In this document: positions 18,750-50,800 of the stretch, piece by piece | Numbering within the stretch: position 1 is the first letter of the stretch | Layout of the letters: each line of letters begins with the position of its first letter | DNA from: Pempheris klunzingeri | Taxonomy: Eukaryota; Chordata; Actinopteri; Acropomatiformes; Pempheridae | Length of the DNA stretch: 64,000 bases | NCBI RefSeq assembly: GCF_042242105.1 | Contig: NC_092017.1 | Location: 20,935,432 to 20,999,431, forward strand | Reading direction: 5' to 3' | Made by a program: the position numbers and the translations under genes | The notes under the pieces: model-generated | What the model saw: the letters and a program-made list of their open reading frames with translations, nothing else | What the model was told of the DNA's origin: nothing | The model's database searches: none

Positions 18750-21700
18750 ATGGGAGGTAAGATACCTACTATATATGATACTCAGGATACTCAGGTTAAC
18801 ACCTCTTATTGGTTATTACTAGTTAATTAGTCTAACAGGTTACTCTTTTTGAGACTAGAAACAGGTGTGAAACTGTCTCACCTTTAACAAGAAATCACTA
18901 GAATATTCCTGTTGTTATTCCTACAGTGGCTGGGAGTGCATGTGTGGCCATGAGTGGTGACTTTTTTCCCTCAAGTGTCATTTATCAACATAATAATCCT
19001 ATAATAATGGATTTATTACACACAATCCCAATCCGATTATATTCAATCAAGCCGCATCTGTTGTGTTTATGCTCTATTTTATCTGCTGTTTACACTCAGT
19101 AGACACTTTATTGGCCACACCTGTACAATCTACTGTAACTCAACACAACTGCCATAACATCCACCTGTATAATGGTCATAATAATCAGTTTTCGTATGAA
19201 ATATGTAAATTCACCTATTTGTTTATCATTGAGGTCATAGTTAAAGGTGGTGTTGGACTGGATGTATGTAGTGTAATTCTTCATGTGCCATGGTGTTATA
19301 TTTGAATCTTAATCAACCACAGTATTTTTTTTTTTCATCACATTACATCACATCATGTCCTCATAACCCACTTAATTTAATATGTGTCAGTATGTGCTGT
19401 ATTTTCTGACTGGTGATTGGTGCTCGGGTTAGATTCACACAAGATACTGAGCATAAAAAAACCTCACTAATGCAGATAGATCACTCACCTGTAAACTGGA
19501 AATCTCAAATTAACTTAGAGTTGATGTCACCTACCTCCCAGTCAGTGATGTCCCCTTATAGAGGCTACTGCTGGCACAAATGAGGGTTCGGTCAGGAATA
19601 GCCAAGGTCCAGAAGAGAAAAGCCAACTTTTTGGAAGATGAGATCATGGCGACTCACTAAGCCGTGGATCTTTCTTGTCTCTGAAAACTCTCTGATTTTC
19701 AGTGTTTTCCAACAACACAAGAACTGTCACATCTTTCTAATTTGACACACTATTTATGGAACATCACATCCTGTATTTAATTAAAAACACCACGCATTTG
19801 CCAATGAATTCCTCACACATCTAATTGATATTTCCTCTCGTAAAGTCCATAAAGCTAATGCAAAGTTCATCACAGGCGTCTCAAACTGCAATAGGTTACC
19901 CCTCCGTAACTATCAGGAAAATCACTTAAGCCAAGTCCAGACTTAATAAGATCATTTCAAGGTCAAAATAAAGTTCATAAATAACTTCTTATATGTGGGT
20001 TTTCTGTTTAAGTCATATCTAAGATCGAAATTGATCCTAAGACTGTTTTATAAATGAGGCCCCCCTGGCAGAAAGGGGTTATTAATCACTTCTCATGGCA
20101 CATTTGAACAGATAATAAACGGCTACCTTGAAGATCCTGAAAAGGGCGTGAAGCTACATCTGAATGCAGGTATAAATGCAACTCAGGGGAGGGTGGAAAC
20201 TGATTTCCATAAACCACCTACATGCAAATCCTCTGCCAGGATACACACCCATTTTATCTGCAGGGGGACACATGACACAAAAGTCTGTAAAACTGCGGGT
20301 GCGCTCCCGCTATTAGAAGCCAGTGGGTAACGTTTCCCCTCTCTCCGTCTGACAGGTGTCTACTCCAGTGAAAGGATGGCAGGAGTTTTCTCTTATGAGA
20401 GTTCAGAGGTCGACTGGTGTGAAGACAACTACAAACACTCTGAGCATGTTGTGGAGTACTTCAACACTGTAAGTTCCTCTCTGTACTGCAACATTTACTG
20501 CATGTCAATACTCACTTCAGGAAACATTTATGTTGGCAGAATAATATCTATAATCAAGCTGGTTCTGGTGATATTTCATTTATTGAATTGGAAATAAATG
20601 CCTCATCTCACAGAAAACAGGGGCATTGGTTGGTTGTGGTTGTTTTGTTGATTAATTGATGTTTTCCCTGCAGATGAGCAGCTTTGTTTTCTTCATTATA
20701 TCTCCCATCATGCTCTACCTTCTGCACCCTTACGCCAAAGAGAGGAACCTGGCGATTCACATAGTCTGGATCATGATGATATTTGTAGGTCAGTCACTCT
20801 GCCATTTTCTTTATTCCTAACGTCCGTGTTTGCCTCTTCCTGTCCCATCATTTTAGGTACAGGATTAGTACCTTAATGACTGTTCTTGTTTGAATCTGAC
20901 ATGTGAACATGAGCCATTAAGCCATTAATCGTGAATCACTGTGTGTGTGATTTGACTGAACACACAGACTGATGAGCTCGTCACGTGGGACGTTGTGTTC
21001 ATAGTGGTGGTTCCCTACGTTTTTGGCCTGTGATCCGTTCAAACAAAGCAAAGGCTGCAATCCACTGAAGCTGCAATGATTTGTATCTTAACTGTAAATT
21101 AACCCACAACAGTTTTGATTATTCATTACTCATTTAAGTAGTTCTTCAGTGGTTCTAGTCTCTGAAATGTGAATATGTTCTTACTTATCTTTGAAAGTAA
21201 AGCAAATTTGTTTTGGACTGTTGGTTGGACAAAACAAGACATTTTAAGACCTCACCTTGGGATCCTGTGAGGGGGATTTTCATATTTTTATAGACCAAAT
21301 AATTGTTAGTTGCAGCCCTACATGCAACCATTTGCATTTAAAGAGGAATTATTCTCGCTTTATGTGAATAAAGGAGAAGTAAAATTATCCAGTAATTCAC
21401 AATTTTCTTTGGTCCCCAGGTGCTATTTTCTTCTATAATAGTGAAAACATCATTATTTTACATTATAAAGACAGTTCTCTTGTTTTTCAGGGCTCTTCTC
21501 TGCGTATTTCCACATGACCCTTAGTTTCATGGGCCAGATGTTGGACGAGCTGTCCATCCTGTGGGTGCTGGCGGTGGGATACGCTGTGTGGTTCCCTCGC
21601 AGGCTGTTCCCTTCTTTTATCAAAGACAGGTAAAGCAACCTCTCAGCAACCAACCCAGCAACAAATGACTTCGTCTGAGGTCTTTGTTTGTGTCTTTATT

Positions 21701-23414
21701 CAGTGGTGTGTGTGTGTGTGTGTGTGTGTGTGTCACCAAGGACTCCAAAACACAGCTCAATAATTGTTTAACAAGAAAAAAACAATGACAGCATTTCCAA
21801 GGCACGCCACCCTGAAACCAAACCTGTGCTGGCTGAGGAGCCTGTCTGACAGCCCTGACCGGAGTCATTTTCACAAAGAAACAATATGGTGCTGCTGGCC
21901 TCACCTTAATGCGACAGAAAAAGGGCTCTCACTATTGTGAGAAGATTGGACCTCCATCCAACCTGTCTAAATATTTAACCACGGGGAAAAGGTTAATTAA
22001 AATTTGATGAGCACCTGAAAGGAAACCCACAGCCCTTATTCAATAACCTCACATTGATTTTCCAGTTTTTCAAAGTAATGGGTTGATCCTCCTGTAGATG
22101 ATTGATTACTAAATACCAGGCACAGGCGAGGCAGGTCAGGGGGCCTGACTGTGACTGTGAACACTTCTTGTTGGAAAGTCACGGAGATCAGTTAACAATA
22201 AAGATATATTTCTGATACTGATTCAAGTGGCTATAATCATAATTTTTATGATAAGAACGTATGAGATGTGTGACAGGACCTCATGGTAATGCTTCTGAAC
22301 CTTTGCCTCACACCTTTCTTTCTCTTTTCTCTTTCTTTTTGTCCACAGGTCCACGTTTTCAAGCCTCGTCCTCGTGGTTACTGTCATCAGCACCGTGTCA
22401 TCATTTATCAAACCTACAGCCAATGCCTACGCTTTAAACTGCTTCGGCCTCCACCTGCTTTACACTCTGGCTGTCGAGATGAGATGGTATGAAGTCTTTC
22501 GTGTTTCCAGGAATGCGTAACAGGTTTCGGTGCAGTTTTGACCCGTTATAATAAGCACTTTTCTCTGTTTCTCAGCTGCACTGACCAGAAGGTTCTGCGA
22601 CTGGCCAAGCTGTCGGTGGCTCTGTGGGTGCTCGCCATCTCCTGCTGGATTAGTGATCGCTTTGGCTGCAGCTTCTGGCAGAGGCTAAACTTCTGCTACC
22701 TGCACGGTATCTGGTAAGTCCTGGTTTCCTTTCCTTTCCTTTCCAAACCTTTATATGTGTATTCTCCTAATCTGCACCATCAATTAAGGAAGAAACATAA
22801 TTCCCACCCATATTATGATTTTGACAAGCGTTAACAAGGAAACATTTTCAATGAACGTATCTGCAAAAGGTTTACTGACAACATATTTCATTGTTTACTC
22901 TACAATATCCATCCTTGTAAATCAATATCCACTCATAGAAAACATTTTTATGGTTATGTGACACTCACAGCACTTAGTTACAGTTAGGATATGATCATGG
23001 TTGAGGTTTAATATGGAAGAAATCAAAGACAAAGTGCTTTTGTCGACTGAACCCAACCACACATGGCACTCGGGATGTGAACCCCCATGACACTTCCCTG
23101 CATCCTCTGTGCTGACCAATAAGTTAACTTCAAGCACAATAAACCAGCAGTATATACACGCCATTTTTAGGAGACAGGGTGGTTTCTTTCAAGGACGTGC
23201 TTGCATGTATTGATCTCCATTATCTGTATCCTCCAGGCACATTCTGATTGTGATAGCTGTGGCCTATGGCAGCACCCTGATAGCTTACCTGGATGCCAAC
23301 TATGAGATACCGTACTCGCTGCCTGGACTGCAGTATTGGCCGTGTGATAAATGGGCTGTTGGTCTACCTCACATTGTCCTGAAGGGCACCACCAAAACAC
23401 AGAAACGGTGCTAA
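18750..23414 (+). CDS. acer1: Alkaline ceramidase 1
   Basis: Multi-pass ER membrane hydrolase splitting ceramide into sphingosine and fatty acid; in mammals ACER1 acts chiefly in epidermis. Exons: 18750-18756, 20356-20468, 20674-20788, 21491-21629, 22349-22486, 22576-22713, 23237-23414, phases consistent, TAA at 23412-23414. From the ATG at 20376 the protein is 266 aa (human 264). The upstream ATG at 18750 is in frame across the first splice and adds nine residues (MGGVYSSER). The mammalian start aligns with the inner ATG, so either may be used. Ca ligands of the family: D13, W14, E16, N18, E27 in the [10 protein letters not shown] region. Zn ligands: H77 (YFHMTLSF), D88 (MLDEL), H205 and H209 (LHGIWH). 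[13 protein letters not shown] and DANYEIP favour ACER1 over ACER2. Hydrophobic segments are spread along the whole protein. Confidence 0.92.
18757..20355. other. acer1 intron 1, nothing recognised
   Basis: A 1.6-kb intron separating the 7-nt coding end of exon 1 from exon 2. No coding exon or clear repeat is seen. Small open frames inside it show no family resemblance. Confidence 0.5.
21055..21325 (-). repeat. Interspersed repeat family R3 copy in acer1 intron 3
   Basis: Contains 'tttggactgttggttgg', 'acaaaacaagacatttta' and 'tagttgcagccctac', blocks shared with copies near 34770-35085 and, in the opposite orientation, 36265-36640 and 44440-44790. The strand label is relative to those latter copies. 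Confidence 0.65.
21706..21733. repeat. (TG)n microsatellite in acer1 intron 4
   Basis: About 14 perfect TG units. The rest of intron 4 (21630-22348) and of intron 6 (22714-23236) contains no recognised feature. Confidence 0.95.
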
Positions 23415-25531
23415 AGAAGTTAAAGTCATTTTTAACTTTGGAAGACCCACAGAGCTCAGTACAGTGAAATTCATCTACCAGCTCACTTTAAAAAAACTTT
23501 AAGAAATGAAAACATACAATACAACCTAGGAATAAATAAAAAAGGATTTAATTTAGTGTCATTTCTGTTATGTTTTTGATTTGTGGCCTCGCCTAGTGGC
23601 CCATTGTCTGTGAATCCATCCATCATCCATATATCACCCATTGAATATTTAAATATGCTCTATATTTATACGGTAGCACTGATGACTGAATTTTTATCCT
23701 GCAGTTTCATATTTCTAAAACAGTAACGAATTCAGAGCATTAGGTAATATTTTAATTGAGATATTTGTTTATTTTCATGATGTGATTGTATTTTTAATGG
23801 GAGAACTTATATGAACATTTTAAAAAATAAGAGTAAACACAACTGCAGGGCAGCTTGTGTTTAAAGTCGACTGATGTTGAACCTGAGGTTGTGCATATTA
23901 TATTTACCTACATATAGGCACGCTGAATGACTGCAAAAATACGCAACATTGTGTGTTTGTCTTTGACAGTGTTTTTGTATTCATGAATCAATTGCCGTGA
24001 TTTATTTTGAAGACATGAATGCACATTTGACTCTGTGCGTGGTGGAGCATATTGATGTGAAGAATGTTTTCTCATGATTAAACTGTTTTTTACCAAACAA
24101 TAACTACTGTAATTCTTCATCGCAACAGTTTCCTGTTTGTGTTTATATGGAGTTTTAAAACACCTCAGCATATGGCCGTTTCACAGTCATTCGCCATGTC
24201 CTCTGAGCTAGTTTGAGCTTTGTTCATATTGATTGCATTTATAGCATTTGAGTAACACATATCTGTCAGTATTACATCTTTTCTGGTCTGTTTCTCAGGA
24301 AAACCTGTTTCATTCACGACCTCTGCAATGCGGCGAAGGTTAATTTGTATGTCTGACCACAACAGTCACATGCAAATCTATTTCCTTTGTACGACTAATT
24401 CATCGTTGAACTTTCAAAAGCCCTTCTGTTGTAAAAGCTCTTGGTGGATTTTGGTGATGTTTTGAGAATATTCAGGCACATTGTGCCTCCATTCACATGA
24501 GCTTTCCTGAAAGATACAATGGTTACAACAATAGATCTTTGACAAAAAGAAATGCACGCAGGCATTCTCAGCATTTCAGTGTTCAACAGTGACCTCCTGT
24601 GGGTGATGAGACATTCAAAAGTGCTTTTAGAGATGTAATCTTTGATTATCAGCTGGTGATAGGTGGTGTGAGGATGAGAGAAAGGTAGCAAATAAATCAG
24701 AATGTGTGTGGCATTAATTCAGATGGCATGATGACTGTCTTCAATCAGTTATCATTAACCTGGGGGTCGGGACCCCCAAGGGAAAGAGTTAAAAGATCAT
24801 CTTTAGCCATGCTAGCAGCGTGGCTCCAGGCACGCCAATGTCAGGCGCCGTCCACCACTTTGGCCCAGACTGAAGTGTCTCAACAGCTCAACAACATCAG
24901 ATGAACTGCCATCAGATTTTGTGCAGATATTCATGGTGCACAGAGGATGAATCCTACTGACTTTTCCTCTTCCTCTTTTCCATAACTAAATCGCCTAATG
25001 CTTGTCTCACGCTTTTGTTTATGACTAAAAACCTGAAAAACTGATGACATTCTTGTCAGCCTACAATGATGCTAATTAGTGACTAGATGGTAAAAAAGAG
25101 TAAACATTACACTATGTGATGATCTGTCATTGTGAGCATCTTCACACAGCTGCTAGAACGGCTGTAGACTAACCTTTCTTTGAGTTCTGTTTTTTGCGTG
25201 TGATATACCAGACTCTTCCTGGTCAGGTCTCTAACAATCCTTCAAATTAAACATTCAGAGAAGAAAAAGTCAAAACTCGTGTCCATACTAATCTGCGATG
25301 AGTTGTTCATAAGGCGACATTGTTTTTTTATTTATTCATTCCTAGATAAATACATGTTTTTTTGCATATCATTTATCAAAATGCTTGTTCTGGTTTTGTT
25401 GAAAGCCTTGTAAGTTAGGACACAACTGTATTTTTGGTTATAATGGAAGAATTGTGATGTACATTCTTTTTTTTTTCATGTTGGACAAGTTTTGAAAAAC
25501 ATTTGCTATTAATAACAATAAAGTTCTGTTT
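23415..25531. other. acer1 3' UTR and intergenic DNA
   Basis: After the acer1 stop, an AATAAA-rich stretch near 23531-23540 is a plausible polyadenylation region. About 24748-24800 ('acctgggggtcgggaccccc') resembles the end of a common fish hAT-type MITE, and it is followed by an R1 repeat. Another AATAAA lies at about 25517-25522, just before duplicate block A. No coding gene is recognised. Confidence 0.5.
24862..25175 (+). repeat. Interspersed repeat family R1, copy 2
   Basis: Carries 'tgtctcaacagctcaacaac', 'gaggatgaatcctactgac' and 'ctgatgacattcttgtcagc', in the order seen in the other R1 copies. The middle part is shortened. Confidence 0.7.
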
Positions 25532-25877
25532 TGTGTGTCAAACCTGTGCAACATGGTTTGCTTTTGTATGTCTGCCTCTCCCCACAGATTGAAAAGGAGG
25601 ATTTAGAGGTTGACGTCTCAATACAAGTGGGACACCCTCCTGTCGGACAGCCAGGTGGGACTTCTTTGACTCGGATTTGACTGAGGGGCAGGCTGGATCA
25701 GTTTGAGCGGCAGGGGAAGAAGAGGAGGCGCCGCTGAGCCAGTGAGAGAGTGGTGACCTTCTGTCACATAGCTGAGGCCCAATAATCTCACATCAAAGTC
25801 CGAACACCACAGAGACCTGACTGCAGCGGGCCCTCACTCCCTGACTCTGTGGAAAAGAGACGTACTTAATCAGATGA
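25532..25877 (+). repeat. 346-bp near-identical duplicate block, copy A
   Basis: Matches 30690-31035 with only about three mismatches that I could find (near 25607, 25625 and 25735), at a constant offset of 5158 bp. Homology starts at 'tgtgtgtcaaacc' and ends at 'gtacttaatcag'. Beyond that, copy A lacks a 22-nt segment present after copy B, then similarity fades within about 50 bp. Inside is a good splice-acceptor-like tract (tctgcctctccccacag) followed by a 30-codon open frame ending in TGA (25588-25680). I do not recognise the encoded peptide. Confidence 0.9.
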
Positions 25878-26259
25878 GACATTTAAAGTACACTTTGTAG
25901 ACAGAGGCGGAGTAAGAGTAAGATGAATGTGATCACCTGTGGAGTTACAGGTACATTATATATATATATTATATTTGGATCTTTGTTCTTCTTTAAATGG
26001 CATTGTAAAATAAAAGTAAATAAATAACTAACGTTTTTTATGAAGGCGAAGGTTGTTTCTTTATGTGAGATGTGGCTGAGAGAGCTCCATGTGGGGAAGC
26101 TTAGATTCAAGATTACATAAAATAAGTACAAAAATAAAAATACAGGAAAGAGGGCTGTGTTTGGTGAGGTGTGGGGATCATTGCTGAGACATTTAAGGGG
26201 TCTGAGGGAGGATCAGCTGTGGGATCAACAACATTAATTTTTGTATTAGAGTCACGGAT

Positions 26260-26345
26260 GACTGTCCCGCCTACCGAGCGCTCCGATTGGCTCCTTTCTA
26301 GACCGCTTAAATTTCCTGCTCCCTGATTGGCTGAGAGGCGGAGTG
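26260..26345 (+). promoter_or_regulatory. Retained mllt1-type promoter module ahead of the pseudogene
   Basis: Contains a GC box-like CCCGCC, then GATTGGCTCCTTTC (26285) and GATTGGCTGAGAG (26325). These are two inverted CCAAT boxes, the NF-Y type, 40 bp apart. The functional mllt1 promoter has the same pair with the same 40-bp spacing (32136 and 32176). Confidence 0.65.
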
Positions 26346-26668
26346 CGCTAACTCGGATGTAGAAACCCTGTGATGGGAACTGACAGTGTGGACAACTTCA
26401 GGCTGTAAATCATGACTTTGACTCCGTTTAAGGACAGAAACTGTTTAGAGAGCTGTTGGGGAACTAACTTTAAGCTGTCAGCTGTCACGGCCAGGATGAC
26501 AAGGGTATGACAAAGACACTTCCTGGATGGTAACTAGCTAACTAGCTGCACTAACATCCGTCTAAACTGATGATGGCGGCGTTTCTGTGCCTGGTCTGTC
26601 AGATTAAAAAGAAATGATGGAGAAATCGCTCTGTTTTTTGCTTGACTTCTTGAAGAGGCCAGACTAAC

Positions 26669-29585
26669 ATGGACCACCAGGTACAGCAGCTTTGTGTCTC
26701 CTCATTTAATCTTTTCGTGGCTGATAGTAGTTTCATTCTGAAGCTATGCTAGCAGGACAAATGCTGATGTATTTGCTACTTTCTAAGGAAACTGTAGTTA
26801 GGAGTGACAGGATGAATAGTCTGGCTGCATCTCATAATCCCTGCACACACCTTTTCCCCCAAGTTTTGGACTACACTTCCGGTCAGGCACTTCCGGTCAT
26901 TGCCTGCTATGGTCAGATTTTGCGGATGTGTCTTGTAACACAACTCGCTGCTATAATTTGAATTAAAAATGCCTTTTGTGGGCTTTAAACTTCTGGAGTT
27001 TGCTCAGCTGCAATCACAGCACTTAAATATAATTATGGTCATGTGATGGCAATCAAGATCAATACTCCTGTCTCTAATCAAAACCTATAACAGTGTTTTA
27101 CTGTCTTGTTTCTATACATTTCAGTGTAATCTTCTGGTGAATCTGGACTGGAGCTGGGCCACAGCGCCTCGCTAAGGGAGAAAGAAACATCAGAGGATTT
27201 CACCCACGCCTGGACTGTTTTTGTCTGAGGACCACAGACCGATGACATCCAGCACTTGGTAGAGAAAGATTTCTTCACTTTGCACGAGAGCTAACCCAAG
27301 AGAGGTATGATTTTGAGTTTTTTAAAAATGCACACCACTGCACGTTCTTTCGTTTTATGTTTATGGAAGGCAAAATTATTCTTGTGGCTCAATTCATACA
27401 CAACCACAGTTGACATTGTTTAAAGTGCAGCATTAAAGACATGACGAAATGCAGCATAACACATTTAAAACTCAAAAGGACTGTGCACTGTTTCCCCCTG
27501 GAAATGGGTCAAGGGAGGTTGTTAGTTCTGCAGGGAAAGAAAAATTGATTGGCTTTAGTCTCTAGTTCTTTCCTGCACACACCAGCACAAATGTCAGCGT
27601 ATTGTCACTGTGACATCTACCAGTATTTCATCAAGACATCTGTGCGTCTGCAGTGTGCAAAGAGCCTCCGTACAAAGGAGGAGGAGGAGTCTGGCTCTGA
27701 GTATCAAGGTTTACTTCAAGAACAAGATAAAAATATAAGATAAAGAACACAAGAGACAAACAAACAAGACATCTTTGTTTATGAAATTTCAAGAGTGTCT
27801 TCATGACTTTTCTCAGCTTTAATCATCCTGCTCTCTACCACTGAACTCATCTCAGGAATGTTAGCTGGAGCGAGAACACAGAGATGAAACAACTGCGTCT
27901 GTTTTATTGAGGGTGATGGTTCATTCATTCAGCTTTCATCTTTTGTTGTAAAATATGGAGGCATTGAGAGCTGACTGTGTGTAGGGGAGGGATGCAGAAG
28001 TCACCCAAGAAGGTCAGAAATCTGTTGTTTTTTCCAGGGGCAGCCGATAAAGGTGTGTTTCAACTATGACCTATTCCTAAACCCAGAGGATGAACCTCCT
28101 GCTGGAGCTGTGAGAAGCTCACCTTCAAAACCCCACCAACAAATTCAGGAGAAAGCTGAAAGCCAGAGGCTGCGACGAGGTCCAGTCCGGACTCCACGAT
28201 GTCCCTAACAAGGAAACTAAAGACCTCTTCAAGTCTCGCAGGTTGGTCAGCATACCCTGTTATGATCCCTGCATGCAGAAAATCTGATGCAATGACCCAA
28301 AATCAACTCTGTAGCACTTTCAGCCCGCTCAGCTTTTTTAATTAGTTTGCTTGAAACATTCTACCAACTTTATTGGTCATTCCAATCAATGCCGTTGATG
28401 AATTTTGAAAAGGGTATTGCATATTTGACAATGTGTTTGTTCAAATCAATCAGTCTTCAGAGCTTATTGTCACAGATGTCTAAAATATCTAACGTAAAGC
28501 TTCAGTGTGTATGATTTAGAGTGACCCATTAGCAAAAATGGAATATCGTATTCTTAACTATGGTTTCAGTTGAGTATTTATCTCCTGAAATTAAGAGTCG
28601 TTGTGTTTCTTTTGCCTTAGAATGAGCCCTTTATATCTACATAAGTAGAGTGCTGGTCCTCTTTCACAGAGTCCACCATGTTGCATCGCTGTATTCCTAC
28701 AGTAGCCCGGAATGAACAAACACGGGCCTTTACTGTTTTTATGTTGCAGCTTAACAGCTTGAATTTGATGGTGCAAAATGCTTCAGTTGGAAGAAGAAGA
28801 AGAAGAAGAGAGAACGGTAAAACCATTTTATGGTGTGACAAATGATTATTTAGCACAAGAAAAAGCTAGGGAGCGTGAATCTGAGTCGGCCACTGTAGCT
28901 TTTCTACCTGTGTGGACTGGGAGGGCTGAGGAAAGGGGTATACAGTTGGTTGCAGTCTACATTGTCACCACTAGGTGCCACTAAATCCAACACACTGGCC
29001 CTTGAACTCAACTTGAGCAATACAAGGCAAGCAGTGCACAGCCTATTTTATCTGCCTCTTTATTTATATATTTCCCCGGCTTGTCAGTCCAGATTGGCGG
29101 CTGATAGCAGGAGCAGTGTGTAAATATTGTAGGCCATTGGAGTGTAGTATCTCTGTTAAAATTGTGAAGTGTTATTGGTTAGACTGGCTTGTCCTTTGTG
29201 TACACTAGTCTCCTTTTTCTATTACACAGATAAACATTTAGTGGGCTGTTTTTCTTTTTTATTATTTTTTGTTTGTGGTAAATAATTAGTTTCACACTCA
29301 CAAAGTAGTCTCTTGTTTATTTTGGGTTTAGTTCACCCTGAGGAAAGCAGTGAATAATTTAATTACAGCACGCACTAAAATGGAGAAGCCAGATTTAGGA
29401 TCTGGGGAGGACATGATAGATGATGACAGAGCTCGTGTACATTATCAAATGTTTTCTGTCTTCAGGAATCCAGCAAAGAGGGAAGCAGCAGTAGCAGCCA
29501 AGAAGCGCCGTGATCAGCCTTGACAGGACTCTGAGACTGAAGCCACCTCGAAGGGGGACGACTGTGGAAGTGGCAAGAGTTGCTG
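26669..29585 (+). pseudogene. Degenerate tandem copy of the 5' half of mllt1 (exons 1-6)
   Basis: Remnant exons align to the functional gene downstream: exon 1 ATG-GAC-CAC-CAG 26669-26680; exon 2 27125-27304; exon 3 27654-27726; fused exons 4/5 28038-28241; exon 6 29466 to about 29585. Lesions: a ~5-nt insertion in exon 2 shifts the frame; an Arg codon becomes TGA and another TAA arises near the exon 2 end; exon 3 has a deletion and a lost donor (AAG|ATAAAA); an internal deletion joins exons 4 and 5; exon 6 contains TGA codons. Introns 1, 3 and 5 still resemble those of mllt1 (e.g. 27853-27985 vs 40155-40310), so this arose by DNA duplication, not retroposition. The YEATS reader domain cannot be made. 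The 3' half (exons 7-12) is absent. Transcription is possible because the promoter module remains. Confidence 0.88.
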
Positions 29586-30689
29586 TTTTGACAGAAAGTG
29601 CACGTGCAGGCCGAGCCACAACATGACGATCAATGATCATATGCAAAAAGAAGGCATTGAGTAGATGTCAGCGTTCAACTGTCTGCTGAGGAGATTATTT
29701 GACCACAAATTATAACCAGTGATACCCAGATGATGGACTGAAATCCAGATACCAAGCATAAGTGGAAGAGCCGAAATTTCTGAAGAAAATGTTTGTGTGC
29801 CCGCAGGCTGCCGCCCACTGCTCACCATGTGCCCAAAGAAAGCTGTCTCTTGTTTTCAGCTGCGATCCATTACGCGGTCAAGATCCATGATCCGTTGCAA
29901 ATATCAAACATGCTTGACTCACTTCAGACGCAGATTTGTAGTACAGTGGGGACGCAGTGCTGCCAGATGTGTATTCATTGACTGCAGCCTGTCCCGGACT
30001 GACATAAACCAGTCATGTCTGCAGATGTGCACCGTAAAGCTGCAATATTTCCAAATTATATTTAAAGGATGTTTTATACCAGAGAAGTTCAAAGTCTTGA
30101 GTCTCATTTGAATTTTTGAATGATGTGTTTAGGTGAAATTATAGCAGAGTAATGGGGCTTCAAAGAGGCGTATAATTTAGAACATTTCTCACCTCTAGTT
30201 TCCAATATATGCTGGGAAACCATATGTCAGAGTGCTACCAAAAGCCAAAGCTCCTCTTCTAATTCATGTTAGAAGTTGTATGCATGTTTTGCGCAAATGG
30301 CACCAAAAGGGGAAAAGTAGCAAAGTAAAGTACGCGAGTCTGGCTAGAAGACCATTGTCATTCATTTTCTCATTTTCATGCTTTTAAACAGACAGCATAT
30401 GTATTTGTACGACTATATTTTCACACTTGATGTTTATTTTTATTGCAAAATTGGCCTTAAATTTATTTAAACTGGATTAAAAAGTCTTAAATTCACTTTG
30501 CTGATAAAGGCAAAGACAAGGCTTCACCCATCACACTTTTATTCAGATATGTTTTAACCATATTGTTATCATGTAAAAAGCATGAGAATTATTCTGTATT
30601 GTAATATTTATTCTTGTTTTTATTGGTAATAAACTCCACTTGTTAAGTTTGAAGCCACATTTGCTTTTAATTTTACTAAAACAATGTAA
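29586..30689. other. Spacer between the mllt1 pseudogene and duplicate block B
   Basis: I found no sequence matching later mllt1 exons. There is an AATAAA near 30628-30634 and AT-rich DNA. A 104-codon open frame at 29797-30111 shows no recognisable domain and overlaps another frame, so I do not call it a gene. Confidence 0.5.
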
Positions 30690-31035
30690 TGTGTGTCAAA
30701 CCTGTGCAACATGGTTTGCTTTTGTATGTCTGCCTCTCCCCACAGATTGAAAAGGAGGATTTAAAGGTTGACGTCTCAATAGAAGTGGGACACCCTCCTG
30801 TCGGACAGCCAGGTGGGACTTCTTTGACTCGGATTTGACTGAGGGGCAGGCTGGATCAGTTTGAGCGGCAGGGGAAGAAGAGGAGGCGCCGCCGAGCCAG
30901 TGAGAGAGTGGTGACCTTCTGTCACATAGCTGAGGCCCAATAATCTCACATCAAAGTCCGAACACCACAGAGACCTGACTGCAGCGGGCCCTCACTCCCT
31001 GACTCTGTGGAAAAGAGACGTACTTAATCAGAGGG
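30690..31035 (+). repeat. 346-bp near-identical duplicate block, copy B
   Basis: Partner of 25532-25877. The internal acceptor-like site is at 30744-30745 and the 30-codon frame runs 30746-30838 to TGA. Two of the three differences fall in this frame and both change an amino acid (Glu to Lys, Gln to Glu relative to copy A). Just after the block, copy B has an extra 22 nt ending in TTTTCAG, bounded by TCAG direct repeats. Confidence 0.9.
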
Positions 31036-32100
31036 TTGCTGCTTTCTTTTCAGATGAAACATTTGAATTGGACATTTGAGACAGAGGCTGAGTAAGATCA
31101 GTGCAACGATCCCTGGTGTCAAAGGTTATGAAATTCAGATATACACAAGTTTAGTTTCCTTTTATTTTCATGATGCAGAAAATGCTTCTTTGAATCAGGT
31201 ATGATTCCTTTTCAATTGATGTGTTTCAAAATTAACGCCAGGAGACAAAGGCTCTTGTGCAGGCTACCATGTGTTACTGCTAAAGAGAGGGAAAACAGCT
31301 TTTTACATGCTAATTATACAGGAAACCAAATGTTTGCCGTGATAAGTACTCAGATCATTTACTTAAGTATTATCTGTATAAACAAAAATGCACTTATTGT
31401 TGTACTCATTACTCAAGTACTCATTATGCATACATAAATGTTCCCTGGCAGTGTAGTATTACAATAACAGATAATTTTTTAGGCATAAACATGGAAGCAG
31501 TATGCTAATTTAATACTGTGACTTGTCCGGGTGGAGCTCACTATTTATTATAATGTTAGGTTAGTTAATTTGTCATAATTAATAAACTAATATGTTTTGT
31601 GTATTAAAATCTAAATCTGCAAAGTAGTAATAGCTATTATATATATGAGGCTGTAGTTTGTAGTGTAAAAAGCCCTATATCTCCTTGGAAATGTAGTTGA
31701 GAGGGAAAAAATTGAACTCTGGTTAGTTACTTTCTTTTCATTAAGTTTATTATGGTTTTATAAGAGTGGCTTCTAAGTTTGGTTCTAAGTTTGTTCATGA
31801 AAAGTAGGAGATTGTGTTCTCAGAAAATTTTAATAAAAAAAAAAAAAATCCTTTTCATTAAATATAAGAAGGTTGTGAGACATTTTGAGTTGCATGAATG
31901 AGATATAAGCCACATTGTTAATGTTATTGATATTCAATTTATCAGACTAATAGCAATAGTATGAACGTGAAATCCATACAATCGAACCCCGATTAATCAA
32001 TTAGCATCATGTGCATTTTACAATTGAAACAGAGCTGTAGCCATTGGGACAGGCTGGCTGTCACTCGAGAAAACCACCAGAAAATGCTTTAATTGTATTT
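31036..32100. other. Region upstream of mllt1
   Basis: AT-rich, with a short R2-like fragment at about 31335-31430 ('acttaagtattatc', 'actcaagtactc') and an A run near 31835-31850. No gene is seen. It makes the block-to-promoter distance about 1.1 kb here, compared with about 0.4 kb in the upstream duplicate. Confidence 0.5.
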
Positions 32101-32107
32101 GCAGCTC

Positions 32108-32352
32108 GGTGGTAGCCCCGCCTCCCGGGCGTTTTGATTGGCTCCTTTCAAGAGTGCTTAAAAATCCGGCTCTCCGATTGGCTGAGAGAGCTTTCTGTTT
32201 TGGTCGCCTGCCAGCAGCCGTCTGGAAGGGGAGGGGAGCCGTCTGCCTTCCGCTTCTGGGCTGGATTGACACACAATGAGGAGCAGAGGCTGGGGAGACG
32301 CTCCGCAAACGCCGCTGTAAATAAATACAACAATCACTGAGGCCAGAGAAAC
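32108..32352 (+). promoter_or_regulatory. mllt1 promoter and 5' UTR
   Basis: GC-rich segment with CCCCGCCTCC (GC box type) and two inverted CCAAT boxes, GATTGGCT at 32136 and 32176, exactly 40 bp apart; this pair is typical of NF-Y-driven, TATA-less promoters. The 5' UTR leads to GAAACATGG, a good start context, at 32353. The transcription start is not determined. Confidence 0.6.
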
Positions 32353-35300
32353 ATGGAGAACCAGGTAACAGTGGCTTTTGTGTCTCCTTGCGGAATCTGA
32401 ACTTTTCACGGAGAAAATGCCAGCAGGCTGCGCGCCGGCAGGGCAGGAATGAATCCTCTGTTCTGCTAGCCAGAAGAAAAAAAAATGCTCCTGCTGCTAA
32501 TGAACTCGTAGTTGTTTGGCTCTGGAGCTATGCTAGCTGGGCACTCATACATCGGTATTTACCGCTAGCTAGCTTCAGTCTACCACACCGTTCAGCACCG
32601 CTGCATAGCTGTAGCCACAACCAGGCACACAAAGAGACTCTCACCTGGTGTTTATTCCGCTGTGGCGTGTTTAAAGCGCACATGCACGCTGTTGGACACC
32701 ATTAAGACCCATTTGAGTCGAGGTTTTGTGCTGCTAAGCTAAGCTAGTCTACCTATGAGGAGAGTGTCGGCCGCTGGCTAAAGGCTAAGGAGCCGCTACA
32801 AGGCGCCGGGGAAAAGATTTGTCCTCTCCAGGTTGGGCTGGAGAGGCGGGGTGGTGTCTCCACTGCCAGCGGCCTGAAACCTCACATGCAGGGCTAATAA
32901 ACGACCGTGCAACTTCTGCTAATATCTTTGCATTATTTGCCAAGAGTTGGTTAATGTTTAATGCCTGCCTCATTCATGAATGTGGGGTAAAAATGCATGT
33001 AGCTTGGTGGAAAAGCTCTGTGGCAAACGTTGAACTTGAATCCAGTAATGACGACCACCCATGCATTGGCTGGTCATTACAAAGCAAAAAGCCCTGAATG
33101 TAAAACATGATTTTAATGACTGGTGTGCGCTCCTGCAAGATCATATCTTCACGTTTAATTGTATTGCATGCCTACATTTGCACTGTTCAGATTTATCTTG
33201 TCTTCTTAAAAAGCTACATCAATTATTCTGCAGAAAACAGAAAAGCGGGTAAAGCAAATTACATATCTGCTAAGTGTGAGGGAGATATTGCTCCAAAGTA
33301 GGTTGCTCTGTGAGTGCCTGAGGCTATTCAGGACTATATTTCAGATGGTTAGGCCACACACACACACACACCCATGGAAAGTGGCTCAGCCACTTTCTTG
33401 GAACTAGTCCTCATTCAGCGTTGGACCCTTTGAAGTTTTAACTAGATCTGTGAGTGTTCATCCAGAGGAAGTCTTCTGCTACAGCTTAAAAGAATAGCGG
33501 AGCTGCACTTTTGTGATGAATGTCTGCCATGTTACATGTGAAAGACTTGGCTTTTCATTCATACTGCTCAGGTATATGTACAGTTGCTAGTTCATTGTTG
33601 CATATAGTTGAAAACAGTGCAGTCTAACACAGCAGCTTTTGTATGAAACATCCTTTCATGAAAGTTATAATGTTCATCTCTGGTTAAAACTGTTTTAGAG
33701 AGCAGTTGATTCAACTTTATGGTCATACAGGCTGATCAGTACTCAAAGGGTTTTCCTAATATTTGGTCAACCCTTACTGATATAAATGAACATTATAAAT
33801 TCCATGAACTTAAGATACAGGGCATGGCCGTTGTCTTATACTGTGTTCGTTTTAGATAGCTGGTCCTTACAAACCCACAGTTGGTCTGTCAGATCCAGAA
33901 GAGAGCCGAGATCAGTCTGCAAATGTTGTATTTGAATTTATTTGTTGCAATTACAGCGTCATGACACAGCTGGGTGGCAGCTTGATTAGCCAAACTGCTT
34001 TGTGCGTCCTCGTGAAGTAGCATCGTGACTTAGTGCGCTCGTACTGAGATCTTTGTTATTTTCGGAGTTCTGAGATCTCCATGTATGAACACTGCAGTCG
34101 GGATGTCATGATGCAGCTTTTCATAATCCCCATCACACTCATTCACACACCCTATTTCCAATACTCGGTTGTTTTCCATGGGTGCTGCAGATAGGCTATT
34201 TGTGGCTCCCCTGTGGCTCTCCAGGGCTGACCATTTTCCAATACAAGTAAGCGTTTCATCTCTTTCTGTGTCATCTTTTAGTGTGATGAAGGATTTAGCT
34301 GGAACATGCAGCTTCATCAAAACACAGCTGCTGTCACGATTGTTTGTGTGTGTGTGTCCCCTTCTAGGGAAACCGTCTGACTTTTTATTTTAATCGTTTA
34401 TTAGCTGGATGAGATTACCATGGTCATGAGGGGTGTTATTTACATGTCAGCTGGGAGTTCATTGTTTTCGTGGGAGCCGGCGTGTCTGCCAAAATTTGTA
34501 TTTCCTCTCAATTGGAGCACTGTGATTTAGAGAGAGAGAGAGAGAGAGAGAGAGCGTGCATGCACCATCTCAGTGTTGGTGGCTTTGTCGCCTTCAATAG
34601 AGCATAACTAAATAAATGTGTTCCCACAAGTCATTTGCTCCATCTGATACTAGTAGAACTGAGTCATTGAGAAGCGTATTCATTGTTTTTTAGGTGTTTG
34701 TTTGCAGGGTTTCATATTTTGAGGTAGTCTGATGCACTTCAGTTCATGTCCATGTCTGTAGTTTATAGAGCTTAAACAAGTAGTTGAACAGTACAAATTG
34801 TATTGTTAAATTAATCGTTTGAGTCATTTTGCTTGTGAAACACAAACATTTGCTTTCACCGACTTCTGAAATTTTGGGTTTTGCTGCTTTTATCTGTTTA
34901 ATATCAGTTAACATTTAATATATTTGGGTTTTGGACTGTTGGTCAAACAAAGCAAACAATTTAAAGACACCGCCTTGGGCTCTGGTTAATAGTTTTTTGC
35001 AATTTTATAGCTAAATCGATTTATAGAGAAAATAATCATTAGCTTAATCAACGGAAACTATCTTTAGTTGTAGCCCTTGTATTTTTTACACAGTTTTAGC
35101 TCTAACTATTATTTTAATTATTCATTAATCTGACAATTATTTTCTTGGTTAATTGATAGAAAAAAAAACAATCTTAAAAAAACAAGTCAGTAATGAAAAT
35201 AGTCGCAGAATAATTATCCATCTCTCAGCGAATCAATTAATCAACTAATTGTTCCATCTCTAATTTTCTCCGCCTCACACTGCTTCTGATTCTGATTATT

Positions 35301-38300
35301 GGGAGAAATTCTATGTTTTGTTTTTTCCATGATTCGAGTTGATTATTCCCTTTGGTTTCTTATGTGGAGTCGCCGTCTTCCTCTTTGGCTCGTTACCATC
35401 CTGATTTTTATGTTGTCCTTATCACATTCCTGATTTCTGCGGAGTCGTCGGAGGGAGGGCGTCGTTGATTATTGAAGGGACTTCACGGCTGCTCGCTGTG
35501 GGTGTGGTGAAGTCTGGAGTTTAAGGGCATTACTGCCACAGAATGGCCGGGCAGAGTGCCAGGCAGGGGAGGTGTGTGTGTGTGTGTGTGTGTGTGGGTG
35601 TGTGTGTGTGTAAGAGTGAGACGGAGAGTGCCAGACCATCTCATCTCAATCCTGCCCCCCTCCTAATCCCCCCACTCAGTCCCAGCTCACGAGCTGCTCT
35701 CCGCCTGGGCCAAATCCCCACATTCTTCAGTCCCCCCCCCAACCCCCCCCGGACATAAAGTGCCTTTCTGTCCCCTCACCCACCCCCTCACCCCCCACCC
35801 CTCGATCCCTTCTGCACTCCATCTCCGTAGCCTCTTCACTTGCTATGCCAGTCACCACCAGCACAGTGTCATTTGCTTGTCCCGTCGCTGTTATTGTTCT
35901 TGGCAGAGAGAGGTAGCCCAACAATGTGCCCCTCTTCTGGACAAACCTTTTGAGATCTGCCGGCTCGGTCAGCTAATCACTCCCCTTGCACAGGGAGCGT
36001 CCCGACACCAGCCCAGCTTTGTGTTTGTCCAGGCGAAGTGTTCAGCCTCTACTCTTGAGTAGAAAGTCCACACACTCAAAATAGAGATTTAGAGGCTTTG
36101 TTCAAGGTGGAATCAGAAACCAATGAATAATGACCACTTGGTTTGGTTTAATCTCACCACTAGCTTTGCTCATATTCATTTCTTGAGCAGCTTCAGTTTT
36201 CAAGGTGTCTCAGCCACTATAATCTAGAGTGGCGGGGAAAAGGTTTGAAAGGTTTGAGGCATGAAACAAATTATTTTCATGATCAATTAATCTGTAGATT
36301 ATTTTCTTATAGATGAAATGTAAGAAAACAGTGAAAATGTCCATCACAGCTTCCTGGAGGCCGAAGTGATGTCTTGTCTTGTCGACCAACAGTCCAAACC
36401 TAAAGATTTAGATTTTAGATGAGAGATTTAGTTTATTGTTATTATCAACACTAGTTTCAGCTTCTAAATTGTAAGGATATGCTGCTTTTATTCTGTGATT
36501 GTGAACTTTGGACTAATGATTGTACCAAATAAGTGATCTGAAGATGTCATCTGTGATTTTCTCAGTTTTTTTCATACATTTTATAGACGAAACAATTAAT
36601 CAATTTCTCAAGAAGATAATTAACGAGTTATTACAAATTAGGTTAAATTAGGTTTTTTGGGGGGAGGGTTTTTTCCAAATTGAAGATTTAAGGATAGAAG
36701 CGTCAGTCGTCATTTTATAAATAAAACTCAATCAATCAATTCAAAATGTAGGATTCAAGAATTCCCACATGAGCAAGCATCAGGCTAAACTCCCCTTTTA
36801 ACGAGAAGAAACCTCGGACAGAAGCCGGTTCAGAGGTGAGCGGCTTTCTGCCGGGATCTGTGTCGGGTGAGGGTTGGACAGAGATAATAGTTACTTCATC
36901 ACTGATAATAGGAATATGACTAATAATGAGCAACATGACAACTGTGAATGAGAAATTGACCTGATATGCATGTCAGTTAAACCTGCTTAAATTCAGTTCT
37001 GACACATTCAGTTTCAAATAATATGTGATGTCTTATGTTGGTTACACGAGCATAAACTTAAGAGAAGAAAAGCAATTCAGTGATGAGAAAACAAGGAATT
37101 CATTCATTCAAAGACTCAACAGAAGAAGAAGAAACATCTCATTGCATTTATTTGACCTTCATCTGCTCACCACAATATGCAGAAAGCGCAGATAAACGGC
37201 AGACAAATGTTTCCATTTTAAATCTTTATCACTGTATTCATCTGAATAAATCTGTTGCTTCTCATCCTGCCCTTGTAGTTAACGTATGACCTTTTCCCGC
37301 GTGTGTCTTCTCTCGTGTCTACTGGCCGAGTGTAGAGAAATACAGTATCTGACTGTTTTGTTTCTATGTGTTCCCTCTCAGTGCACGGTGCAGGTGAAGC
37401 TGGAGTTGGGCCACAGAGCCCAGCTAAGGAAGAAAGTGACATCAGAAGGTTTCACCCACGACTGGATGGTGTTTGTCCGAGGGCCAGAGACCGGCGACAT
37501 CCAGCACTTTGTAGAGAAGGTCGTCTTCCGCCTGCACGAGAGCTTCCCCAAACCCAAGAGAGGTGAGATCACAATATTTTAACAAAAAACACACACTCTC
37601 ACTCTCTGCAACACAAGGCTTAGCCATGCGTAGGCATCACAGACCCTTCCCTCGTGAACAGTGCACTAGTGGATGTCACGGTGCAGTGAAATAATCCACA
37701 TGTAATATCTTCTATTAGATTTCTGGCTCTTTTATAATTTGGTGCACTTGGTACCTGTTTTGTAAATGACTAAACATGTCGGTCAGGTCAGATCTCAGGT
37801 GATTTATTAGAGCTGTTCCTGTTTTGTGTTCAAGTGTCACGATCATCTTGATATCAATTTTGTCACCCAGTTTTAGATCATTTTAAGGGCTGATTTAGTC
37901 ATAATTTGTTTAGTATATGGACGTTTGCTGGTTAAGTCATTGATTTTGGTAGTGTTTAGTTTAAGACTATTCTGTTCTTAGATAATCTAATATAATGTCT
38001 TTTTGATATAATTTTGTTAGACTTTAAGGACTATTTCCTTCTTGGAATTAATTTAGTTAATAGATTTGTCTACCCCATCAACTCAGTCATTGTATCAGTA
38101 TTCAGTCATTCTATTGATAAGAGTAACACCGTGTCCTAACAGCAAGCGAGCATCAGACTATCACGTTGTATCATGTAACATTAGACGCTCTCTGTCCACA
38201 CTGCATCTGTTTGATATGCACTTCTGTCAGTCATGTAGACAAACCATGTACCAATCAGCTGTGCACAAGAGATCAGACTGGAGATTTAACCACTCAAGTA

Positions 38301-41300
38301 AAAGATGGGTGACTACTTTGTTCACATGTTTTGTATTGTGCTATATAGACGTTTCTTTATTAGAAACGACATACAGTGTATGCCAACTACAATCAGAAAC
38401 GTTCAGCTCACTGGCGATCTCTCTCTTCAGCCAGCTGCCGCCCTATTAGGGTTTTAGTAGTTAGGTGAGAAGGTGTCATAGATAACTCTTCACTCCAACT
38501 TCACGAATCAATTGTACCTCGTCTGTGTTGAAGCACACTCACTTGCAACAAGAATAAATAGAAACAGGGTATCCGACAAAGTATCAGCTCAAAGCGCGTC
38601 CAATAGAAAACAATGTGATCACACTGTCTTGTTGTTCTCAGTTAGGACACACTTTAATATCTCTGTGGTAATTGTGCTTCTGTCTGTCTGCAGTATGCAA
38701 GGAGCCTCCGTACAAAGTGGAGGAGTCCGGCTACGCAGGCTTCCTCATGCCAATTGAGGTTTACTTCAAGAACAAGGTGAGATTGTGTGGACATGGTTGG
38801 TAAACTGCTGGCTGTAGACAGGCCTCTTTGTGTAGATGTTGTATTTATAGAAAAGAGACTTATAAGCTGTGGAAAAGAAATGAGAAATTGTAGAGTAGAA
38901 ATTAGAAAGAATAGATTTTAGGAAATTACGGATAGCAATGTGACAGTAAATGTAATTGTTCAGGCTTCAATATGGTTGATTTTTGCATGTTGTTATTAAT
39001 CTATTCAGGGTTCGTACAAAGCCTTGGAAGTTTGGAAAATGTTTGATTTTAACCATCAGGTTTTCAAGGTTCGAAAAAGGCTTTCAAATATACATCTTGA
39101 AAAGTTCTTGATTTTGAACATAATCTTGTGTTTCAACTAAACATTAAATAAGCAAGCATTACATGATCCTAATCAAAGTTAATATGAACATCTGGTAAAA
39201 TTGACAAATACACTGACTGCTGTGGGTATAAAGTACTTATGGACTTTTTCATAATTGCAGTTTTAGTATAACTATAGCTTGAAGAGTGCTTGAACTTTAC
39301 TCTTAAAAATCTGTATGATGCCTGCATATTATGAAATATTAACTGAGTACAGTTAATGTGGATATAGTCCTTGTGAACTGCACGGAGACTGACAGAGACC
39401 AAGTACAAGTGCTTTACATACACACAAAAATCTGGATTACTGAGAGGAAATCAGATTTTTCCTGTAGGAACCAACCCATGTTTTGGCGTCTTTCCTTTAC
39501 AAGATGTTTCAGGAAACAGGTTATTGCCCAAAGCCAAGAATAATCAGATTAATTAAGTGCATGTAGATTTATTAAGTGCAGTGCAGTGATGGTTTGAAAT
39601 TTGAGAGTGGCTTCACTTTGGCCTGCCTTACTAACACACTCTCCAATAGGTCAGACAGGAGTGATTATGTCTCCATTTACCCAATCAGAGTGCACGATTG
39701 TGTTAGAGAAACATTACGTTTTTAAGGGGGCATTTCTCTCTTTAAGTGATAGAAATAAAACAAGCACACACTATTGCACTGGTACCTCCATCGGCCATTT
39801 AAATGAATGATGAAAGAAAGAAAGAACCACTTTACTCTCATTACAAGATAAGGATGATGCTTAAGAGGTATGTGCACATTAGTGTACCGTCGGCTCCTGC
39901 AGTCTTTATAATATTAAACCTCTGGGCTGCACCCACACATGTTACATCCTCTTTATTGTAATTAACTTATACACAACGGACAAATCTATCAAGAAGATGA
40001 AGAAAACACTTAGAGGCAAGCGAGAGAAGTGTGAATATTAGCAAACATTAATCCGTCTGTGTTTGTAAGAAGACGTTTTTGTTTATAAAAACCCTCAGGA
40101 GCATCGTAAGGCCTTTTCCTCGGCTCTAATTGTCCACTTCTCTGCAGCTTCGCCCAGGAATGTTAGTGGTTTCTTATCAGTGTGCCGGCTCCGGCCACGT
40201 CTGTCTGTTTTATTGATTTCCCGGGTGATAGTTCATTCCTTCAGCTTTTATCTTTTGTTGTGAAATATGTAGGTATTGAGAGGTGACTGGATGTAAGGGA
40301 AGAATGCAGGAAGGATTAAGAGGTTTTAAACTGTCTTCATCCTGTCATCTTCCTTCAGGAGGAGCCAAAGAAGGTGTTTTTCAACTACGACCTGTTCCTT
40401 AATTTGGAGGGCAACCCACCAGTGAACCACCTGCGCTGTGAGAAGCTCACCTTCAACAACCCCACCAAAGAATTCAGGAGAAAGCTGATCAAAGCTGGAG
40501 GGGTGAGGCACGCTGGCTGCTTGCCAGGTTCAGATGAGTGACTACAGTCAGTAGCAGATACTAAAGTCAACAATAGCACTACAATAGCAACTACCACGGA
40601 AAAATAATATGTATTTTACTTCAAATAGAGTTGCAAAGTTCAAATTTGTTTTCCTGTCTTTCTTCAAACACTATCCTCAAGGTATAAAGGGCAAAAGGCA
40701 TTCAGTTCATAGACAGCAATTTTATTTATAAAATGCTTTTGTTTCTGGGCTGTTGGTAGATGTTTTACACCTTTAACCAGGGTTTGTCTTGAAAGTTTGA
40801 AAACTGCTTGGAGGATCAGAGGATCAGATAAATGTGAAAGTAAAAAAAAAAAAAAAGAGTTCTAATGTAAATAAGTAGATACCCTGTAATGCAAATATGG
40901 AGATATTTTCTAATCTAGTCATTTTGCTTACTTACTAAACATTTAATGATAGAAAGCTATCACTAAATCACTAAAAGTGGGATTGCAGCAACACCAAATG
41001 TAGAAGGCTGTTTCAGTCAGAAACCATCTGACCTGCAGCTCACTACGTCTAGCTACAGTAATTTGAAATGGGTTAATCCATCTGTCCATTTTATTACAAG
41101 TGCAGTTGCAAATTAAACAGATAATAAATTATATTCTACTGTATAAGGTATTAAAAAGATCCTAAAACGTCTTGAACTTAACGGAGAACCTTTGTCAGTG
41201 TCACTGCACAAAGAAACACATGATTTTGCACAATGTAGTTATCACATAGGTTTATGTTATGGCCACCAGTTTTAATTATTTCACCTTTGTGTGAGAGATG

Positions 41301-42496
41301 AAGCGAATTCAAAACTCTTTGTAGTTGAATTTGTGAATGAAACATGTTGCCATGGTTGGTGAATTAAGCCAGAACTGAAATTGAGCCTAAAGGGGAGTTG
41401 ATCAAAGCTTTACGCTGGGATGTCAGTTTTCTCAACACCAGGTTGCTCATGGAGGTTTCTTACTAAAATGCATAGCATAGCATAGTTGTCATCTCCCTCA
41501 AGATTTTTACCCACATAAACCTTTGACCTTTTTCAAAGAAACAAGTATTTTCCCAGTTGTTCTTTTGTACTGATGATTCAGAGTCGCTGATGAGTTTAAT
41601 GACCACTTGAGCCGTGGAAGCGCTCCAACTGTGAGTCATGTAACATCGCATCACATGAGTGGGACGTCAGGACACCGGGGTGTCCAAAATAGCATTTAGC
41701 TCTTTGAAACTATATATGTCGTCAGTCTCAGTAAAAAAAAAAAAAAAAAGCCCTCTACATTAACACTTTACTGTGTATCTATAAAGGTCACCAAAAAACT
41801 CTGTAACCTCTTTAATTTCAGGTATTGGTGGTTCCAGAGGGGGCTGAAGCTGTGTCGAGGCCCAGTCCAGACTACCCGATGCTCCCCACCATCCCCCTCT
41901 CTGCCTTCTCAGACCCCAAGAAGACCAAGACCTCTCATGTGTCAAAGGTTGGTTACATTTCCAACAAAAAAATACCATCTTAGTTATCTCATTAGCTCTG
42001 TCAGCTTTTCTCCTTTGTTTGGAGTATTTAACCAGAAAATGTCACAACTTTATTGATCATTTCAGTCGATTTTTATTGATATTTTTTGAAGAGTATTGGG
42101 GTAAATGTCTAAATGAACATCGAATGCCCTTAAGAAAATTATTAAATCTGTCTTGAGTGCAAGCTGACTCAGGCATCTAATCATTTCCAGCTGTTTTTGA
42201 GCACATGTATGCAGAATTACTCAGCCGTCTTATCTGCCAGCAGAGGCGACATATCGGGAGAAAACAGGAAGCTGATCCCCCCTTACATTTTCCACTGTTG
42301 CCACTGTTTTAGTATCAACCTTTCACAGATTAGTACCGTGGTATGGCCCTCATGTGTGAGTGAAATGAAATGGAGCTGGTTCTTCAGTCCACATTATTGT
42401 TGTGGTATGAGTTGGTGTGCGTTGAGCAGATAGAGGACTTGGTTTCATCCAGCTGTGTCCATCAGCTGACAGAAAAAGTCAGTAAGAGCCACCCCA

Positions 42497-42531
<35 letters not shown>

Positions 42532-48146: not shown

Positions 48147-48742
48147 CAGGAAGTGGAAACCGGCGTAGGGAGACCGGCGTGTGGATGGCGGTGGAGGAGG
48201 TAGACTCGCCACCACGTCTCCTCTTCCAGGAGGGGACGAGCAGCCACATCTGTCGCAGCTGTCTCACAGGCCTGACTGAACCATTGAACAACTACCACAC
48301 AAACAGAAACACGCGAACAAACACAAGCACACATGAAGACACACCACCTTCACGTGACGCTGAGGAGGACACTGAAGGAGGAAGAGGAGGAGGTGTGGGA
48401 AAGGAGCGGAGGAGTGGAGTAGCTGAACTCCATCTACAGTCAGGATTTTCACTACACATCTCTTTTTTTTTGAGTCTGTGCAGAGCTGTGGAATGCACCC
48501 CACACCTCCTTCTTCACCCTCTTGCACTCATATTGCTCCCGCCTTTGCAAAGCCAATACTTCCCCTCCTCTTCCTCCTCCTCCCCCTCCTCCTCCTCCTC
48601 CTCCCCCCCCCTTCACACGCACACTCCTTACTCGGCAGAACACTCCAGTTCCCTTCCCCCTGCTGTCAGCTGGAGCTCATTTCTCTCCCGACATACTCTT
48701 GAGTTTTGTGTGTGTGTGTTTTGACTGTGTATGTGTGTTTTG

Positions 48743-48780
<38 letters not shown>

Positions 48781-49484
48781 CATGCGAGCGCTGCTGAGGT
48801 TTAAGAGGAGATGTTGTCTTTGTGGTTACTGACTTGTCTTTGTTCTTGAAGCTAGAGCACAAACAACAGCCGTTTCCCTCCTTTCACACACACACACACA
48901 CACACATACGACAAACAAATACAAATTCAGGTAATACTTAATTTCACCCCTTCTTTATCATTGTTAAGCAGTATGTAAACATTAACTTAATGACTTATAA
49001 CACTCTGTAATGTAGTTGTAAGCAGATGTATGCTGTATTTTTAGTGTATTTGTCAACTATAATCCCTCCTGTGGGCAAACATAAATGAAAGCTGGTGTAT
49101 AAACAGATGATGAATGATAACATTTAACAATTACAGTTGTAATAATGTAAAATCCATATTTATAGGAGTGGGTGCACTGAAAACTGTGTGTACATGTACT
49201 TAGAACTACATTATAGAGCGTTATAAACATTTATTAAACGTCAATAGTGCTTAGAAATGCTAAACAGGGGGTTTGAGTAAGGTGATTCCCAGATTCATGC
49301 ACATGTCTCCCAGGTCCTTATATTTAACACTGTACATGACGACACTGAGACGTGTGTGTCCGTGTTTTGGATGAGGTTTCTCTGTTGTCTGAACATTTGA
49401 AAACACATGTTCTGTTCTCTTGAGTTTCCCCTCTACTTCCTGGCACTGAAAGCTGAGCCTTGACTTCCTACCAACAGCTCGCTC

Positions 49485-49485
<1 letters not shown>

Positions 49486-49515
<30 letters not shown>
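49486..49515. repeat. C30 homopolymer
   Basis: Thirty consecutive C residues within a pyrimidine-rich stretch. Length may be inaccurate because such runs are error-prone in sequencing. Confidence 0.9.
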
Positions 49516-50520: not shown

Positions 50521-50764
50521 AGGCCTGCATCATGAAGCAAGATTAGCTGGTTAGACCGATAACTTTGAGCTAAGCTGACCAGTCTCGCGAAGCTGGCTCA
50601 CTTTAACCGATGTCGATCTCTAAACCTTTGCTGCTTGTTTAAACCTGTGAACAATTAGAAATAATGAGCACAAAGCAACATCGGTAGATTCTCTAGGCTT
50701 TACGTTTTAACTGTGCCAAACCACATCTCATTTAAGAGATTTTTGTAGTACGACCAGATACCAA

Positions 50765-50800
<36 letters not shown>

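Follow-up and report, generated by a model that had tools for sequence, protein, structure and literature searches.

A decayed copy of the 5′ half of mllt1, very probably an unprocessed tandem pseudogene, upstream of the working gene in Pempheris klunzingeri

The interval between a ceramidase gene and mllt1 in Pempheris klunzingeri contains segments that resemble the promoter and first exons of mllt1, which raises the question of how this copy arose and whether it still serves any purpose. A sequence-only reading had taken it for an unprocessed pseudogene that represents the 5′ half of mllt1 and lies in tandem with it. We analysed the 64,000-nucleotide window around the locus (C6:20935432-20999431) and searched the whole 645.9 Mb assembly of 439 contigs. 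Co-linear promoter, exon and intron pieces, a broken frame and a near-neutral copy branch support this assignment, and from this we conclude that the copy is very probably a head-to-tail duplicate of the mllt1 5′ half, which decayed near-neutrally and of which one tract may later have been converted.

Co-linear homology of the copy to mllt1

The upstream neighbour belongs to the ceramidase family and is presumably acer1; one of its three exons lies above the Pfam cut-off (E 6e-8), and for the remaining two the family gave weak matches (E 0.043 and 0.034). The gene on the minus strand at the far end of the window we take to be acsbg2. In the Protein Data Bank, the joined YEATS exons of the parent gene matched human ENL best (E ~1e-82) and AF-9 almost as well (E 7e-81). 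Six stop-to-stop frames, five of them around mllt1 exons 2, 4, 5, 6 and 7 and one beside exon 4, were scanned with Pfam, which returned no YEATS domain and a single family at chance level. The coordinates of all features are given in Table 1.

When positions 26000-30000 were compared with the window by blastn (E up to 0.01), all eight non-self matches were co-linear and on the plus strand, linking 26266-29562 to 32117-43898 of mllt1. The best match reached 170 bits, compared with a maximum of 31.9 bits in 100 dinucleotide shuffles (26240-29590 against 32100-44430). With a looser cutoff (E up to 1) the copy interval gave 14 matches, 12 of which were co-linear with mllt1, and the remaining two, located elsewhere, scored 31.9 and 31.0 bits, which is the level of the shuffles. 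Six of seven other intervals of the window, used as controls, stayed at or below 32.8 bits against mllt1; the seventh, 20000-23350, reached 46.4 bits via a short repeat that it has in common with mllt1 intron 1. Aligning the copy to mllt1 had been proposed as a check on the sequence-only reading, with segments out of order counting against it; they are co-linear, and the blastn matches and a base-by-base alignment agree that remnants of the promoter, exon 1 and exons 2-6 occur in the order and orientation of mllt1, as had been claimed. The copy adjoins the gene in the same orientation, retains the parental exon-intron order and keeps most splice sites. Its promoter also keeps motifs that we take to be a GC box (26267, equivalent to 32118) and two ATTGG (CCAAT) boxes (26286 and 26326, equivalent to 32137 and 32177), which are 40 bases apart in copy and parent alike.

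The introns had been described as still partly alignable, and indeed pieces of introns 1, 3 and 5 align between copy and gene above 200 of 200 shuffles, and intron 2 shows no detectable homology between the two (its score is equalled by 199 of 200 shuffles). Exons 1-6 span 2.9 kb in the copy versus 12.1 kb in mllt1 (11.6 kb if mllt1 is counted only to 43922, where the alignment ends), close to the 2.9 and 12 kb estimated before. As to the accompanying suggestion that introns either shrank in one copy or grew in the other, there is evidence both ways, since intron 4 is missing from the copy and introns 1 and 3 of mllt1 carry dispersed repeats.

Homology ends at about 29582 within exon 6, which corresponds to 43922 in mllt1. 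A continuation of the pseudogene beyond exon 6 was rejected, because 29577-30530 matches neither the remainder of mllt1 (43930-59400; 33 of 60 shuffles equally good) nor the 3′ region of the ceramidase gene (23420-25400; 55 of 100 shuffles equally good). We infer that the truncation arose with the duplication and not afterwards. A search for the AHD matched two places, neither of them within the pseudogene region, and the AHD half of the protein cannot be made from a copy that lacks everything past the first part of exon 6.

Table 1 Features of the mllt1 locus (positions in the window).
Feature	Position	Strand	Remarks
Ceramidase gene	~20-23.4 kb	+	Upstream neighbour; stop codon 23412-23414
Upstream tract copy	25532-25869	+	338 bases; upstream part of the duplicated unit
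Old diverged block right of tract	25875-25917	+	Matches 31055-31097; 0/200 shuffles as good, z 10.9
Promoter remnant	26266-26337	+	59/72 identical to 32117-32188
Pseudogene exon 1, coding part	26669-26680	+	Start codon and three codons; GT donor kept
Pseudogene exon 2	27125-27304	+	Both splice sites kept; 5-base insertion and 6-base deletion; stop codons
Pseudogene exon 3	27654-27726	+	4-base insertion and 14-base deletion; AT in place of the donor GT
Intron 3 remnant	27763-28010	+	Matches ~40067-40312 of mllt1
Pseudogene exon 4	28038-28163	+	Acceptor kept, end deleted
Pseudogene exon 5	~28164-28241	+	Fused directly to exon 4 through deletion; GT donor kept
Intron 5 remnant	29073-29160	+	Matches 42810-42899; 0/200 shuffles as good
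Pseudogene exon 6	29466-29582	+	First part only
Dispersed repeat between pseudogene and mllt1	30353-30512	+	At least 39 other places in the genome (40 scored of 125 candidates)
Downstream tract copy	30690-31027	+	Upstream of the functional mllt1 promoter
Parent mllt1	32117-44426	+	399-codon open frame; includes promoter 32117-32188 and coding exons 1-6
mllt1 coding exons 1-3	32353-32364, 37382-37562, 38694-38776	+	
Dispersed repeat in mllt1 intron 1	~36726-36951		
Dispersed repeat in mllt1 intron 3	~38997-39329		
mllt1 coding exons 4-6	40359-40502, 41822-41947, 43776-44426	+	
mllt1 C-terminal AHD stretch	48015-48131	+	Gene at 32-48 kb
Minus-strand gene	61-63 kb	-	Weak AMP-binding matches below Pfam cut-off (E 1.2e-5; E 0.032)

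The near-identical tract on both sides of the copy

The duplicated unit extends farther upstream than the interval delimited by the sequence-only reading, which had missed a tract at its left end. The two copies of this tract differ at 3 of 338 positions (99% identity), flank the pseudogene in direct orientation with a spacing of 5,158 bases, and each lie upstream of one promoter. A word search of the 646 Mb genome, which skips very common words, yielded two candidates for the tract; both were scored and both are at the mllt1 locus, so that a dispersed element is unlikely and an identification of the tract as a transposable element was rejected.

Beyond its right edge, a gap of 22 bases is followed by an abrupt drop to a block with 81% identity. 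To the left, 22 of 32 bases are identical without gaps (P 6e-5, for a stretch picked post hoc), and a local alignment extended over more of the left flank did not reach significance, 12 of 200 shuffles doing equally well. The stretch between tract and promoter shows no detectable homology between the two sides (179 of 200 shuffles equally good). As a separate observation, 26144-26228 has a 77% match over about 86 bases at a single other place in the genome, C17:2279537-2279622.

Since the adjoining homology is old and diverged, we read the tract as the product of a later gene conversion; a recent conversion tract inside an old duplicated unit would be the simplest reading of the sequences. A head-to-tail duplication would then have covered exons 1-6 of mllt1 together with the promoter and the flank upstream of it, giving the upstream copy at 25.5-29.6 kb, and after the decay of this copy there would have been an exchange between the tract at its left end and the corresponding tract in front of the working promoter. 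Such an exchange could have left the tract 99% alike in flanks that had already drifted to about 69-81%. The base composition was considered as a sign of conversion and set aside as weak, because a GC content of at least 51.5% is reached in 78 of 1274 tract-sized windows of the 64 kb.

The main rival to conversion holds that the two tract copies have stayed alike through constraint on both, as an enhancer or a non-coding exon. The sharp edges of the tract, a GC content that is 52.7% inside it and 27-37% in its flanks, the presence close to its start of a sequence resembling a splice acceptor, and its detection at the mllt1 locus only would all fit such an element, which we nevertheless regard as rather unlikely, if worth keeping in view. 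Rfam detected no known RNA in the window at gathering scores, nor in 25400-26000 with the threshold relaxed to E 5, and Pfam found no domain in three tract peptides from two of the six frames. Furthermore, two of the three tract differences alter an amino acid in the frame following the acceptor-like site, and 99% likeness is rare in paralogous elements whose neighbours are at 69-81%. Conversion is the reading that we prefer. Whichever process kept them alike, direct repeats 5,158 bases apart are predicted to allow unequal crossing-over, by which the entire pseudogene would now and then be deleted or duplicated.

Loss of the frame and rate of decay

The alignment agrees with the earlier description of a frame broken by an insertion, stop codons, a lost donor and an exon 4/5 fusion. 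In exon 2 a 5-base insertion ends at 27142 and the match contains one TGA and one TAA, and the donor of exon 3 reads AT instead of GT. Frameshifting indels are also present in exons 3, 4, 5 and 6, with indels of 11, 4 and 1 bases in exon 4, a 1-base insertion and two deletions (1 and 26 bases) in exon 5, and deletions of 6, 13, 7, 3 and 3 bases in exon 6. All of these sizes are aligner-dependent, and for exons 5 and 6 they do not count gaps at the ends of the aligned pieces. The deletion that fused exons 4 and 5 begins within the one exon and ends within the other, and intron 4 is gone. Given this broken frame, an open, spliced YEATS transcript from the locus would be very unlikely, and the copy presumably makes nothing functional now.

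The differences between copy and gene were polarised with a related YEATS gene that the assembly contains on contig C23, using the 362 aligned sites of exons 2-4 common to all three sequences. This outgroup is assigned to mllt3, since its exon 2 is closer to AF-9 than to ENL (AF-9 chains at E ~1e-35 ahead of ENL at E ~1e-30 in the Protein Data Bank). Non-silent differences fell on the copy in 32 cases and on the gene in one (4 unresolved), and silent differences were distributed 11 to 12 (4 unresolved), an asymmetry with a Fisher P of 2.4e-5. The even silent counts are as expected from a clock; the non-silent ones are uneven. The corresponding dN/dS is 0.71 on the copy branch (bootstrap 0.43-1.40) and 0.02 on the gene branch, with unresolved sites shared out and without correction for multiple hits. 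From these branch counts and ratios we conclude that the copy evolved near-neutrally during most of its existence, while mllt1 stayed under strong constraint. The differences between the two by codon position (31/192, 27/190 and 50/188) follow the pattern expected if one of two copies is constrained. Decay would accordingly have proceeded almost neutrally, through substitutions, frameshifts, loss of a donor and the deletion that took intron 4 together with both exon edges. At fourfold sites 24 of 75 positions differ, which, together with general fish substitution rates, suggests an uncalibrated age of the copy of tens of millions of years.

Several observations count against the explanation as a whole: intron 2 and the stretch between tract and promoter lack detectable homology, the left flank of the tract is weak, the interval of 0.43-1.40 on the copy branch allows a functional period, and the promoter boxes are kept. 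The interval bears on the idea that the duplicate served temporarily as a truncated YEATS protein before it decayed. An overall pN/pS of 0.137/0.391 between copy and mllt1 and a point estimate below 1 on the copy branch would be compatible with such a phase, which we consider unlikely, as the interval includes 1 and the protein would have been without its AHD half.

The kept boxes bear on the possibility that the copy is alive and that its promoter drives a non-coding transcript regulating mllt1. This seems highly improbable to us: the GC box and both CCAAT boxes have persisted at exact spacing, as have the donor of exon 1 and several further splice sites, but the promoter as a whole, with 59 of 72 identical bases (81.9%), is about as well preserved as the rest of the alignable non-coding sequence (219 of 270 columns, 81.1%), and the exons change at a near-neutral rate. 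Little probability likewise attaches to a wider version, by which the tract would be a duplicated functional element common to the dead and the living promoter, and the pseudogene would persist because it serves mllt1 as a regulatory decoy or as a unit of non-coding transcription, with the tract homogenised or constrained accordingly. A processed, retrotransposed pseudogene, to which the joining of exons 4 and 5 without an intron might point, can practically be dismissed, as the copy has a promoter, an upstream flank and pieces of introns 1, 3 and 5, and as a junction inside exon sequence is that of a deletion and not a splice junction.

Comparison with known pseudogenes and YEATS genes

Like other unprocessed, that is duplicated, tandem pseudogenes, the copy keeps introns, promoter and flank, lies beside its parent on the same strand and has a broken, near-neutral frame; unlike typical members of this kind, it comprises the 5′ half only and is flanked by a near-identical tract found at two places. 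This conversion-like 338-base tract is the sole unusual feature of the locus. The kind of pseudogene is already known and the copy is an ordinary gene fossil of it. The earlier reading knew of no description of an mllt1 pseudogene at this site, and our literature search of limited scope likewise found none in fish, so that the copy adds one that is apparently undescribed. Tandem duplications in teleosts are the subject of PMC3464592. The locus offers a clean example of branch-specific decay next to a strongly constrained chromatin-reader gene.

With its parent mllt1 (ENL) the copy has the YEATS exons, their order and the promoter boxes in common, whereas the parent differs in its intact frame across exons 1-6, its AHD stretch and its longer introns. 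The mllt3 (AF9) gene on contig C23 is related and more distant from both mllt1 and the copy. Apart from these genes, a weak YEATS-like match was observed at C15:7394801-7394926 (E 0.007, 51% identity), which perhaps represents a further YEATS gene.
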